A stretch of DNA of 60,452 bases, taken from the NCBI GenBank assembly GCA_003218975.1, contig QHPD01000109.1, forward strand, positions 1-60,452. Direction: 5' to 3'. The DNA comes from Verrucomicrobiota bacterium. GTDB lineage: Bacteria > Verrucomicrobiota > Verrucomicrobiia > Chthoniobacterales > UBA10450. A program made the translations under genes and the position numbers. The notes beneath the pieces are model-generated. The model saw only the letters and a program-made list of their open reading frames with translations, did no database searches and had not been told where the DNA came from. This document shows, piece by piece, positions 23,728-49,676 of this stretch; the first letter of the stretch is position 1, and each line of letters begins with the position of its first letter.

Positions 23728-23808
23728 GCTGTAGCGTCCGCTATCCTCAGCGGATTTCGCACTGCCACGCCGAGTGCCCGGTGCGCTCATGAGAGCGCAC
23801 GCTATAGC
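23728..23808. repeat. palindromic repeat (GTAGC family) between pstB and phoU
   Basis: The outer stem GCTGTAGCG/CGCTATAGC encloses two hairpins: a 6-bp stem (TCCGCT/AGCGGA) and a perfect 8-bp stem at 23781-23800. This three-way layout is shared by the elements at 34525, 47683 and 49179. Confidence 0.65.
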
Positions 23809-33675: not shown

Positions 33676-34530
33676 GTGTTCAGCTTGACGATGCTCGGCA
33701 GCGGCAGCGCGGGCAACAGCGCACTGGTCGCCACGGATCATTGCAGGATTCTTGTCGATAGCGGCCTGAGCGCGCGACAATTGGTGTTGCGTCTGGCGGA
33801 GTGCGGCGTCGCGCCGGAACAGCTTGATGGCGTGCTTCTCACTCATGAACACACCGACCACATCTGCGGACTTGAAGTGTTTTGCCGAAAATTTGATGTA
33901 CCGATTTATTGTAATCGACTCACGGCTGAAGCACTTCGTTGCAATGGTCTCTTAAATCGGCACCGAAATTGGCGAATTTTTGCGACTGGTTCCGAGTTCT
34001 CGATCTGCGACATCACGGTGCAAACATTTCCCGTACCGCACGACGCCGTCGATCCGCTTGGGTTGGCATTTCACGCCGGCTCGGGTGTGCTGGGTTTCAT
34101 CACCGATCTTGGCTACGCGACGAAGATGATCATCGAACGCTTGCGCCAAGCGCAAACGCTCGTGATCGAAACCAATCACGACGAAAAACTCTTGCAGAAC
34201 GATACGCATCGGCCGTGGCCGGTGAAACAACGAATCCAATCGCGACATGGTCACCTCTCGAACAGGGCGGCAGCAACCGTGATTGAAGAATTGCTGCGGG
34301 GAAAAATCGAGCGCGTCGTGTTGGGTCACCTCAGCCGCGATTGCAACACGCCCGAGCTCGCTCTGGCTGCCGTGCGCGCATCCCTGGGAAAGTGCGGGAA
34401 GATCGACATGGAAATCCATATCGCCGCCCAATCCGAACTCAGTCCCCGATTTCGAATCGGTGAAACAAAACCAGGCGCGTTTCAGCCAAGTTTCGAGAAT
34501 GCGTTTTTTCAAACCGCGCCCGTTCTGTAG
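33676..34530 (+). CDS. metallo-beta-lactamase-fold hydrolase (YycJ/WalJ-like)
   Basis: This 284-residue protein starts at GTG. LGSGSAGNSALVA and LVDSGLSARQL are YycJ signatures, and the zinc motif HEHTDH is at 57-62. Further metal ligands are in VPHDAVDP and ITDLGYA, with H in LGHLSRDCNTPELA. Relatives are exonuclease-like DNA or RNA processing enzymes. The TAG stop is inside the palindromic repeat at 34525-34588, which also contains the next gene's ATG. The C-terminal 35 residues vary among homologues. Confidence 0.85.
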   Translation: MFSLTMLGSGSAGNSALVATDHCRILVDSGLSARQLVLRLAECGVAPEQLDGVLLTHEHTDHICGLEVFCRKFDVPIYCNRLTAEALRCNGLLNRHRNWRIFATGSEFSICDITVQTFPVPHDAVDPLGLAFHAGSGVLGFITDLGYATKMIIERLRQAQTLVIETNHDEKLLQNDTHRPWPVKQRIQSRHGHLSNRAAATVIEELLRGKIERVVLGHLSRDCNTPELALAAVRASLGKCGKIDMEIHIAAQSELSPRFRIGETKPGAFQPSFENAFFQTAPVL

Positions 34531-34588
34531 CGGCTGTCTATGACTGCCGCAATATCAGAGGATTGTCGGCCGCAGACCGCCGCTACAG
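34525..34588. repeat. palindromic repeat (GTAGC family) spanning a stop and a start codon
   Basis: The ends pair over 15 bases with one mismatch (CTGTAGCGGC... and ...GCCGCTACAG), and inner G/C hairpins follow. The TAG of the left arm is the stop of the hydrolase, and the ATG at 34540 starts the next gene. Confidence 0.75.
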
Positions 34589-47227: not shown

Positions 47228-47686
47228 ATGTCCTTGGCCAACTTACTTTCTGCCGAGCAAATCATCCCGGAGATGAACGCGACCGAGCGTTGGCCTGCCA
47301 TCGTCGAACTAATCGATCTGCTTGTTCAGCTGGGCAAAATTAAAGAGCCGGATCGCGATCCCGTTCTTGCGGCACTCAAGCAGCGCGAGGAAACCATGAG
47401 CACTGGGATTGGGTTCGGCATTGCCATTCCACATTGCTCCTCTGACCGGCTCGACGAAGTGGTGGCCGCGTTTGGGAGATCGACAAGTGGAATCGAGTTC
47501 GACGCGTTGGATAACGCGCCGGTAAAGTTCGTTGTTCTTTTTATTGTCCCGAAAAATCAATTTCAAACGCACCTGCGCACGCTGGCTTCGATCGCAAAGT
47601 TTCTGAACGACCGGTCCGTGCGCGAGAGCCTGGCCAGCGCGAAATCTGCCGACGAAATCTTGTCGATCTTTCGCGATCGCTCGTAG
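47228..47686 (+). CDS. PTS IIA-type (PtsN-like) protein, second copy
   Basis: This 152-residue EIIA type-2 protein has the active histidine at H69 (FGIAIPHCS). The shared pattern with the protein at 32918 is clear (LVQLGKIKEPD, REETMSTGIGFGIAIPHC), but identity is modest. No EIIB/EIIC is nearby, so a regulatory role is likely. Its TAG stop lies in the left arm of the repeat at 47683-47748. Confidence 0.85.
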   Translation: MSLANLLSAEQIIPEMNATERWPAIVELIDLLVQLGKIKEPDRDPVLAALKQREETMSTGIGFGIAIPHCSSDRLDEVVAAFGRSTSGIEFDALDNAPVKFVVLFIVPKNQFQTHLRTLASIAKFLNDRSVRESLASAKSADEILSIFRDRS

Positions 47687-47748
47687 CTGCAGCGGCGGTC
47701 TATGGCCGCCGAGGGAATGTCGATGCGGCGCTCACAGAGCGCAGCTAC
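47683..47748. repeat. palindromic repeat (GTAGC family) spanning the PTS IIA stop
   Basis: The ends GTAGCTGC and GCAGCTAC form a perfect 8-bp outer stem enclosing GCGGC/GCCGC and GCGCT/AGCGC hairpins. The stop codon TAG of the PTS gene is inside the left arm. Possible upstream starts of argS (from 47702) lie inside it and are not used in my call. Confidence 0.72.
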
Positions 47749-47764: not shown

Positions 47765-49516
47765 ATGGAAACCTTCCAGTCACTTCTCGCAAAGAAGCTT
47801 TCGGATGCTTTAGCAAACGCCGGTTTGCCAGACGCTGGCGAACTAGCGCAGGCGACTGATCCGCGCTTCGGCGATTATCAGACCAATGCTGCTCTCGTGC
47901 TGGCAAAGCAACGGGACGAAAATCCGCGAGATCTCGCGGAGAAAATCGTCGCGCGCCTCGATGTTGGTGATCTTTGCGAACCGCCGGTGGTCGCCGGCGT
48001 GGGTTTTATCAATTTCACATTGCGTACTGGCGCGATGGCGGAAAAGACGGTCGAAGTCCTGAGAGATGAACGGCTGGGCGTTGCAGAGGAAAGATCGACT
48101 CGGCGAATCGTGATTGATTTCGGATCGCCTAACGTGGCCAAGCCGATGCATGTCGGTCATATCCGCAGCACCGTGGTCGGCGACGCGCTGGCGCGCATCG
48201 CGGCGTTTCTTGGGCACGAAGTCGTCCGCGACAATCACATTGGCGACTGGGGGACACAGTTTGGGATGGTCATTTACGGGTGGAAAAATCTGCTGGATCA
48301 GCAAGCGCTTCAGCGCAATCCGCTGGCCGAGATCGTGCGCGTTTACAAGGAGACAAACGAAAGAGCGAACAGCAATCCGCAAGTCCGCGAAGCCTGTCGC
48401 CAGGAGTTGGTGAAGTTGCAAGCCGGCGACAAGGAAAACACCGACATCTGGAACGAGTGCGTCGCGTTTTCGATGCAGGATTTCGAGCACGTTTACAAAT
48501 TGCTCGACGTCCATTACGACCTCCAATGCGGCGAAAGTTTTTACCACGCTCGGCTGCCCGGCGTGGTCGAACGCCTGCTCAAATCCGGTATAGCTGAGAT
48601 CAGCGAAGGCGCGGTAGTCGTTTTCTTCCGCGATAATCCTGAGCTGGCCGATAAACCGCTCATCATTCGCAAGCGGGATGGCGGATTTAATTACGCAACG
48701 ACGGACCTCGCCACAGTCGATTATCGCGTCAACGATTTGAAAGCCGATGCGATTTGGTACGTGGTCGGCGCGCCGCAGATTTTGCATTTCAAACAAATTT
48801 TCGAGATCGCGCGGCGCGAAGGTTACGCGGCTGATCTGCGTCATATCACCTTTGGCAGCATCCTCGGCGAGGATCGCAAACTGATGAAGACGCGCTCCGG
48901 CGAAAATGTGCCGTTGCGCGACCTTCTCGATGAAGCGTGCAAGCGCGCACGAAAAATCATCGAAGAAAAAAATCCGCACCTGAGCGAGGACGACAAGATC
49001 GATATCGCGGAAAAGATCGGGATTGGCGCCGTCAAATATGCTGATCTGTCGCAGTACCGGATGACTGATTACGTTTTTTCATGGGAGAAAATGCTCTCTC
49101 TGCACGGGAACACAGCGCCCTATTTACAGAACGCCTACGTGCGCGTTCGCTCGATTTTCCGTAAGGCGGGCGAATCCGCTGTAGCCACGCCCCTGTGGGG
49201 CGTTAAGGAGGAGACGGGCCACAGGCCCGTGGCTACAGAACTCACGCTAAACGATTCGGCCGAAATCAATCTCGCCAAACGCCTGTGTCAGTTCGCGGAG
49301 ATCGTTCCGCAGGTGTTGAACGACTTTCGCCCAAATATTCTGGCAAATTATCTGTTCGAGCTGGCCAACAGCTTTCACACATTTTATGAAGCCTGCCCGG
49401 TCTTGAAATCAGATGAACCAGCCCGCAGTTCCCGCCTCGCCTTGTGCGTTCTTACTGGTCGGGTTCTTTATCGCGGCTTGGATTTGTTAGGCATCAAAGT
49501 GCCGGAGAAAATGTAA
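47765..49516 (+). CDS. argS: arginyl-tRNA synthetase with in-frame palindrome
   Basis: This 583-residue class I synthetase attaches arginine to tRNA-Arg. METFQSLLAKKLSDALANAG begins the ArgS N-terminal domain; the HIGH-like motif is in DFGSPNVAKPMHVGHIRST, and the KMSKS-like loop is GEDRKLMKTRSGENV. NAYVRVRSIFRKAG begins the DALR anticodon-binding domain. Codons about 472-491 (49179-49238) are a 60-bp palindromic repeat translated as VATPLWGVKEETGHRPVATE, lying in a variable loop before LAKRLCQFAEIVPQVL. The upstream frame from 47702 is repeat DNA, so 47765 is the start. Confidence 0.95.
   Translation: METFQSLLAKKLSDALANAGLPDAGELAQATDPRFGDYQTNAALVLAKQRDENPRDLAEKIVARLDVGDLCEPPVVAGVGFINFTLRTGAMAEKTVEVLRDERLGVAEERSTRRIVIDFGSPNVAKPMHVGHIRSTVVGDALARIAAFLGHEVVRDNHIGDWGTQFGMVIYGWKNLLDQQALQRNPLAEIVRVYKETNERANSNPQVREACRQELVKLQAGDKENTDIWNECVAFSMQDFEHVYKLLDVHYDLQCGESFYHARLPGVVERLLKSGIAEISEGAVVVFFRDNPELADKPLIIRKRDGGFNYATTDLATVDYRVNDLKADAIWYVVGAPQILHFKQIFEIARREGYAADLRHITFGSILGEDRKLMKTRSGENVPLRDLLDEACKRARKIIEEKNPHLSEDDKIDIAEKIGIGAVKYADLSQYRMTDYVFSWEKMLSLHGNTAPYLQNAYVRVRSIFRKAGESAVATPLWGVKEETGHRPVATELTLNDSAEINLAKRLCQFAEIVPQVLNDFRPNILANYLFELANSFHTFYEACPVLKSDEPARSSRLALCVLTGRVLYRGLDLLGIKVPEKM
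49179..49238. repeat. 60-bp palindromic repeat inserted in frame in argS
   Basis: The ends CTGTAGCCACG and CGTGGCTACAG pair over 11 bases perfectly. They enclose hairpins CGCCCC/GGGGCG and ACGGGCC/GGCCCGT. The length is an exact multiple of three, and neither strand's stop codon (TAG in the arm) is in the argS frame. Confidence 0.85.
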
Positions 49517-49521
49517 CTGCA

Positions 49522-49645
49522 AAATGACGAAGCACGAATGTCGAATGATGAAGCTCAAATGGGAAGGTGTCGCGGTAAGCGGCCAAGTGTTCGGATTTCG
49601 TCATTCGGATTTGTTTCGGCATTCGTCATTCGGATTTCGTCATTT
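49522..49645. repeat. palindromic repeat (AATGACGAA family) between argS and treY
   Basis: The ends AAATGACGAA and TTCGTCATTT pair perfectly, and the interior is built from repeated GAATGACGAA / TTCGTCATTCGGATT words. It fills almost the whole 160-bp gap. It is unlike the GTAGC family in base composition (A/T-rich). Confidence 0.7.
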
Positions 49646-49676
49646 GAGATGAAGTCTCCACTCCACACGGCATGAG

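Follow-up and report, generated by a model that had tools for sequence, protein, structure and literature searches.

The 60,452-nucleotide stretch of DNA analysed here (the window), from a soil bacterium of the Candidatus Udaeobacter group, contains argS, encoding arginyl-tRNA synthetase, on the plus strand at 47765–49516, with Pfam matches to Arg_tRNA_synt_N, tRNA-synt_1d and DALR_1. Homologues align from the ATG at 47765 and support it as the start codon in place of the listed start at 47702; the revised position is the most likely one because the listed start falls within a palindromic element just upstream of the gene (47683–47748). Inside the gene, at 49179–49238, lies a 60-bp palindrome (CTGTAGCCACGCCCCTGTGGGGCGTTAAGGAGGAGACGGGCCACAGGCCCGTGGCTACAG), and the argS reading frame stays open through the whole of it. 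The perfect 11-bp outer stem (CTGTAGCCACG/CGTGGCTACAG) and two inner hairpins described in an earlier note on this DNA were confirmed at these coordinates. In each arm, GTAGCC leads into a stretch that can fold on its own as a hairpin of 7 bp and a 3-nt loop: the 5′ arm (49179–49203, plus strand) comprises CTGTAGCC and the hairpin ACGCCCC-TGT-GGGGCGT, and the inverted 3′ arm (49214–49238, minus strand) comprises GTAGCC and the hairpin ACGGGCC-TGT-GGCCCGT (ACGGGCC-ACA-GGCCCGT on the plus strand). The lowest-energy fold is a single long interrupted hairpin (−21.3 kcal/mol, z = −5.1 for DNA; −37.4, z = −5.0 for RNA). None of 200 shuffles reached this stability, and the palindrome ranks among the strongest inverted repeats in the window.

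The palindrome is a REPIN: two GTAG-REPs in inverted orientation, separated by a short spacer. Both arms show the unpaired GTAG head beside a short hairpin that characterizes GTAG REPs, the perfect outer stem joins them as an inverted doublet, and the arms are more conserved than the spacer (0/47 arm differences against 1–5/10 spacer differences among three related species, L025, L026 and L028). REPINs, defined by Bertels and Rainey in 2011 as elements mobilised by REP-associated tyrosine transposases (RAYTs; PMC3116915), share the inverted doublet, the conserved arms and the variable spacer; they were described there as extragenic, whereas the argS copy is coding. Membership in the GTAG REP dimers is unaffected by the coding location, since intragenic GTAG REPs are an accepted subset (PMC3733652). 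Rfam gave zero matches at gathering thresholds across the whole window, and the REP arms differ too strongly among palindrome families for one covariance model.

The palindrome had been described as exactly 20 codons of the argS frame. It is indeed in frame, but its 60 bp are not codon-aligned, running from the second base of codon 472 to the first base of codon 492, and the net gain relative to homologues without the insert is 15 residues rather than 20, because five linker residues (PKIDK) are missing beside it. Its assignment to a region before the DALR domain had to be corrected: Pfam DALR_1 covers residues 455–584, and the insert lies within it, between its first two helices. An AlphaFold model built on 32 ArgS sequences (mean pLDDT 87) places the insert as an unstructured loop between helices 451–467 and 498–520, with residues 471–486 below 50 and the rest of the fold intact.

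Three further palindromes of the window had been likened to the argS copy. The design is shared by the second REPIN just upstream of argS (47683–47748), whose GTAG gives the TAG stop of a PTS EIIA-like ORF (47228–47686), and by a related REPIN at 34525–34588, whose GTAG gives the TAG stop (34528–34530) of a metallo-beta-lactamase-fold ORF; supplying TAG stop codons is a known habit of GTAG REPs (PMC3733652). The likeness does not extend to the intergenic REPIN-like palindrome at 23729–23806, whose outer stem is imperfect and whose REP family is a different one (GTAGCGTCCGCTATCCTCAGCGGA). Downstream of argS, at 49520–49650, degenerate repeats of the GACGAA/CGAATG type form an inverted stretch whose 31-nt arms are 81% complementary.

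Inserts in the ArgS loop of related bacteria

The best ArgS matches are from soil Verrucomicrobia MAGs in Chthoniobacterales, some of them named Candidatus Udaeobacter. We compared 85 different ArgS sequences (one genome per species, all genomes MAGs), 83 of which cover the insert region. This alignment, proposed as a check in the earlier note, bore out the expectation that the insert residues are absent from homologues: 58 of the 83 have no insert, and 25 have one of 5–35 residues. Across the full alignment, all insertions of at least 4 residues fall at core positions 467–477 of 568, except for one of 6 residues near the N-terminus; two of the loop insertions (L160 and L162) are natural 6-residue length variants.

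Several palindrome families occupy the loop. The type A insert (GTAGCCACG..CGTGGCTAC) has a single common junction in ten species; type A sits at a different junction in one further ArgS (L038), and a similar palindrome is translated in another frame in L105. Type C (GTAGCCGG..) is found in one ArgS, type D in three, a single REP in one, a GTGG-headed palindrome whose arm is repeated through the genus in three, and further palindromes or hairpins in five. At one of these five (L126), the loop holds a longer repeat, in frame and translated as PSPQPSPASGRG..SPGEKVRMRG, which looks like a widespread repeat family. One type A copy (L027, G032:C36) carries a 30-nt hairpin (CCGCCTTCGCCCGGCTACGGCGAGGCAAGC) within its second arm, still in frame, giving a palindrome nested in a palindrome nested in argS.

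Counted by family and junction, at least 8–9 separate insertion events have occurred in the ArgS loop. On an ArgS tree calculated with the loop left out (quick method, SH-aLRT only), carriers and non-carriers interleave, and the label "no insert" requires at least 13 changes. Ancestral insertion followed by clean excision was rejected as the origin of the insert-free sequences, because these retain the PKIDK linker that the insert replaces. Comparison with homologues without the insert revealed no evident target-site duplication, the mark of one class of MITEs, beside it, although the site had lost five codons and provides no clean empty site.

The ten type A carriers have an identical left junction (GC|TGTAGCC) and identical missing linker codons, as would be expected if their inserts derived from one ancestral insertion that was lost, or overwritten by recombination with insert-free alleles, in other species. 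We consider this possible but somewhat doubtful. Not only do carriers and non-carriers interleave on the tree, but in their gene flanks the carriers are not clearly closer to one another than to non-carriers; shared recombination tracts around the type A insert gave no clear sign, with one of six segments (301–410) at p = 0.044, uncorrected. The arms are also too similar for the divergence of their hosts: they are identical at 47/47 nt in L025, L026 and L028, while the argS genes of these species differ at 32–33% of third codon positions and the 10-nt spacers differ as well. In L031 and L033 the palindrome has eroded heavily, with 10 and 12 changes in its arms, and the frame is preserved. We take this pattern of arms and flanks as probably the product of elements that arrived repeatedly, or were converted by other REPINs, and then decayed. 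Whether or not type A had a single origin, the other families and junctions still require separate events.

Palindromes elsewhere in the genomes and candidate RAYTs

In the source genome, the loose pattern TGTAGC-N25-54-GCTACA occurs at 26 places, nearly all with nested hairpins; this count by itself proves nothing, since a reversed-pattern control was as high (33). The stricter pattern TGTAGCC..GGCTACA was therefore adopted for counting and gave 269 palindromes against 22 for the reversed control, summed over 35 congeneric genomes. With about 24–25 strong TGTAGC/GTAGC palindromes dispersed in the source genome, the element is multi-copy both there and throughout the genus, rather than being confined to argS.

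The further in-frame copies anticipated by the earlier note were found: seven of the approximately 25 strong palindromes of the source genome lie in frame inside conserved proteins (ArgS, IleS, UvrB, MiaA, RarA/MgsA, an FAD/Fe-S oxidase and a PAS histidine kinase), and several others, located at the ends of proteins (ThiC, ScpB, PlsC, DinB-like), may or may not be translated. In congeners, about nine of 29 sampled palindromes are inside recognisable proteins, including LplA, a pyridoxal decarboxylase, a SIS-domain protein, a family B DNA polymerase and a sortilin-like protein; two ABC transporters have a palindrome at the same linker and two CbiX proteins at the same site. Overall, in-frame positions within conserved proteins account for about a quarter to a third of the REPINs sampled. 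Among MiaA, UvrB and IleS orthologues in the genus, the same loops hold different palindromes or repeats, or none. Nearly all in-frame copies are read as Val-Ala (GTA GCC). The TAG-reading frame is closed immediately; the remaining frame, Cys-Ser, runs into a TGA in type C and is open in some others (for example L105 and L294).

The UvrB loop is occupied by simple repeats as well as palindromes, as seen from the degenerate AACGCCCAACGC-type repeats that it contains, in frame, at five loci from several species. At four IleS loci, the loop holds longer repeats, in frame and translated as SSRAQRSGVEGA..RDSSTSLGMT, which look like a widespread repeat family. Genome G000 has two ileS copies about 91% alike (contigs C137 and C116), one complete with a REPIN and one fragmented; either the gene is present twice or the MAG includes DNA of a contaminating strain. 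In an ORF at L274:1208-1750, a type C REPIN links the beginning of a 3′-5′ exonuclease domain to sequence that matches a pyridoxal decarboxylase in its C-terminal part; the ORF looks like a chimera, formed by recombination at the REPIN or during assembly.

Genes for RAYTs are present in most of these genomes: the curated model NF047646 scored over its cut-off in 30 of 35, including the source genome (two hits). At about 12 of the 30 RAYT loci examined, GTAG REPs belonging to these palindrome families lie on or close to the flanks, as is typical of REPINs and their cognate RAYTs. The flanking REPs are mostly type C; type A occurs at one locus (G006:C111), and at another (G030:C67) the RAYT gene is flanked by a REP near-identical to that of the 23729 copy in the window. 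The RAYT on contig C51 of the source genome, an assembly of 165 contigs, has no REPs of these families beside it. The two strongest PF01797 hits in the source genome were first read as RAYTs and then discarded: that on C129 is an IS200-like TnpA by NCBIfam, and that on C159 is its close homologue.

Origin and persistence of the argS insert

Among type A carriers, pN/pS is 0.74 in the insert and 0.146 in the remaining argS; the insert codons evolve nearly free of protein-level constraint. This low constraint, together with the disorder of the insert in an otherwise intact fold, points to a RAYT-mobilised element kept where it is harmless. In the reading that we favor, with a probability of roughly 0.87, a non-autonomous REPIN, most likely mobilised in trans by RAYTs encoded in these genomes, landed in ArgS, in the flexible loop that links helices one and two of its anticodon-binding (DALR) domain, and has persisted as a tolerated, disordered insert, making the loop a permissive landing place. 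Its persistence would come from having one open frame (GTA GCC, Val-Ala), from not shifting the frame downstream and from contributing nothing to the protein beyond a disordered loop. Different palindrome families would have entered the loop independently in related species, each copy afterwards decaying or being replaced. The insert peptide is probably translated and harmless, and selection against bad insertions may explain why one loop is always hit. The earlier proposal that the repeat moves or is copied into essential genes without breaking them is supported by the in-frame copies and the insert-free relatives, with movement itself deduced from comparison.

A bolder version, which we regard as unlikely, is that the loops of Ca. 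Udaeobacter housekeeping enzymes are standing landing pads, at which palindromes are exchanged by targeted insertion or by cassette-like REPIN conversion; the linkers of essential enzymes would then be continually rewritten, and the hairpin might also serve a purpose such as pacing translation.

Much less probable is that the hairpin is retained for a function of its own, for instance delaying ribosomes where the DALR domain begins or regulating the argS mRNA, with its arms selected as RNA or DNA. The identical arms of L025, L026 and L028 would fit such selection, as would the lower synonymous divergence in the insert (0.31 versus 0.54); however, conserved arms with a variable spacer are also typical of REPINs (PMC3116915), and the arm identity is accounted for if the elements arrived or were converted recently. 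The majority of the ArgS sequences compared do without any insert, the decayed palindromes of L031 and L033 remain in frame, and the same loop holds inserts that differ in sequence and fold. It is scarcely credible that the loop is simply loose and varies in length in the ordinary way, the palindrome having been produced by a local duplication rather than by a mobile element: loop length varies in other bacteria too (alignment with solved ArgS), but members of these palindrome families are scattered over many unrelated sites in the genus, a fact that already contradicts this explanation, and unrelated families occupy the same loop. Misjoining of a repeat into argS during metagenome assembly or binning is just as implausible. 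All genomes are MAGs, and the L274 ORF has the appearance of a chimera with a REPIN at its joint; against this, ArgS stays colinear and in frame to either side of the insert, and about ten genomes that were assembled separately carry the type A insert at one and the same site.

Relation to known palindromic elements

GTAG REPs, their dimers, their RAYTs and their occurrence inside genes have been described (Di Nocera et al. 2013, PMC3733652), with intragenic copies most numerous in another member of the Verrucomicrobia, Opitutus terrae. The in-frame copies reported there encode 20–30 residues, with targets that include recB and tRNA synthetases of other bacteria, argS being unmentioned in the text; in two Xanthomonas, different REPs are at about the same recB site. 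The elements described here match them in the GTAG head, short stem, inverted dimers, in-frame copies and supply of TAG stops. They differ in that a single ArgS loop (and likewise the MiaA, UvrB and IleS loops) holds several palindrome families across a genus, and in that at least a quarter of the sampled REPINs are in conserved coding sequence.

The analogy with rickettsial palindromic elements (RPEs) drawn in the earlier note captures the behavior of the argS palindrome but not its kinship. RPEs are likewise palindromes in frame in conserved proteins of Rickettsia, and an RPE-bearing guanylate kinase is translated and active (PMC2229807). However, RPEs are 105–146 bp long (PMC2229807), and the short rickettsial palindromes are assigned to CGTC-tagged repeats, for which a dedicated transposase is not known (PMC3733652), whereas the argS palindrome is a 60-bp, GTAG-tagged REP doublet of the REPIN/RAYT type. 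It works like an RPE without being a member of that family.

In the literature consulted, we found no description of palindromic repeats in Udaeobacter, nor of a single loop that palindromes of several families have filled anew in different species of a genus; a recurrent, multi-family landing site of this kind appears to be undescribed. Judged by sequence comparison, the ArgS loop would offer an unusually clear record of a known type of element repeatedly entering a permissive site in a housekeeping enzyme. The common view of small mobile palindromes places them outside genes and treats coding copies as a peculiarity of rickettsiae with a few parallels elsewhere. The lineage studied here lives free in soil and bears in-frame mobile palindromes in several housekeeping proteins. 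As insert-free homologues, decayed copies and replacements occur side by side at one loop, the neutrality of insertion, the rate at which the loop is refilled and the supply of protein linkers by mobile DNA become directly testable.
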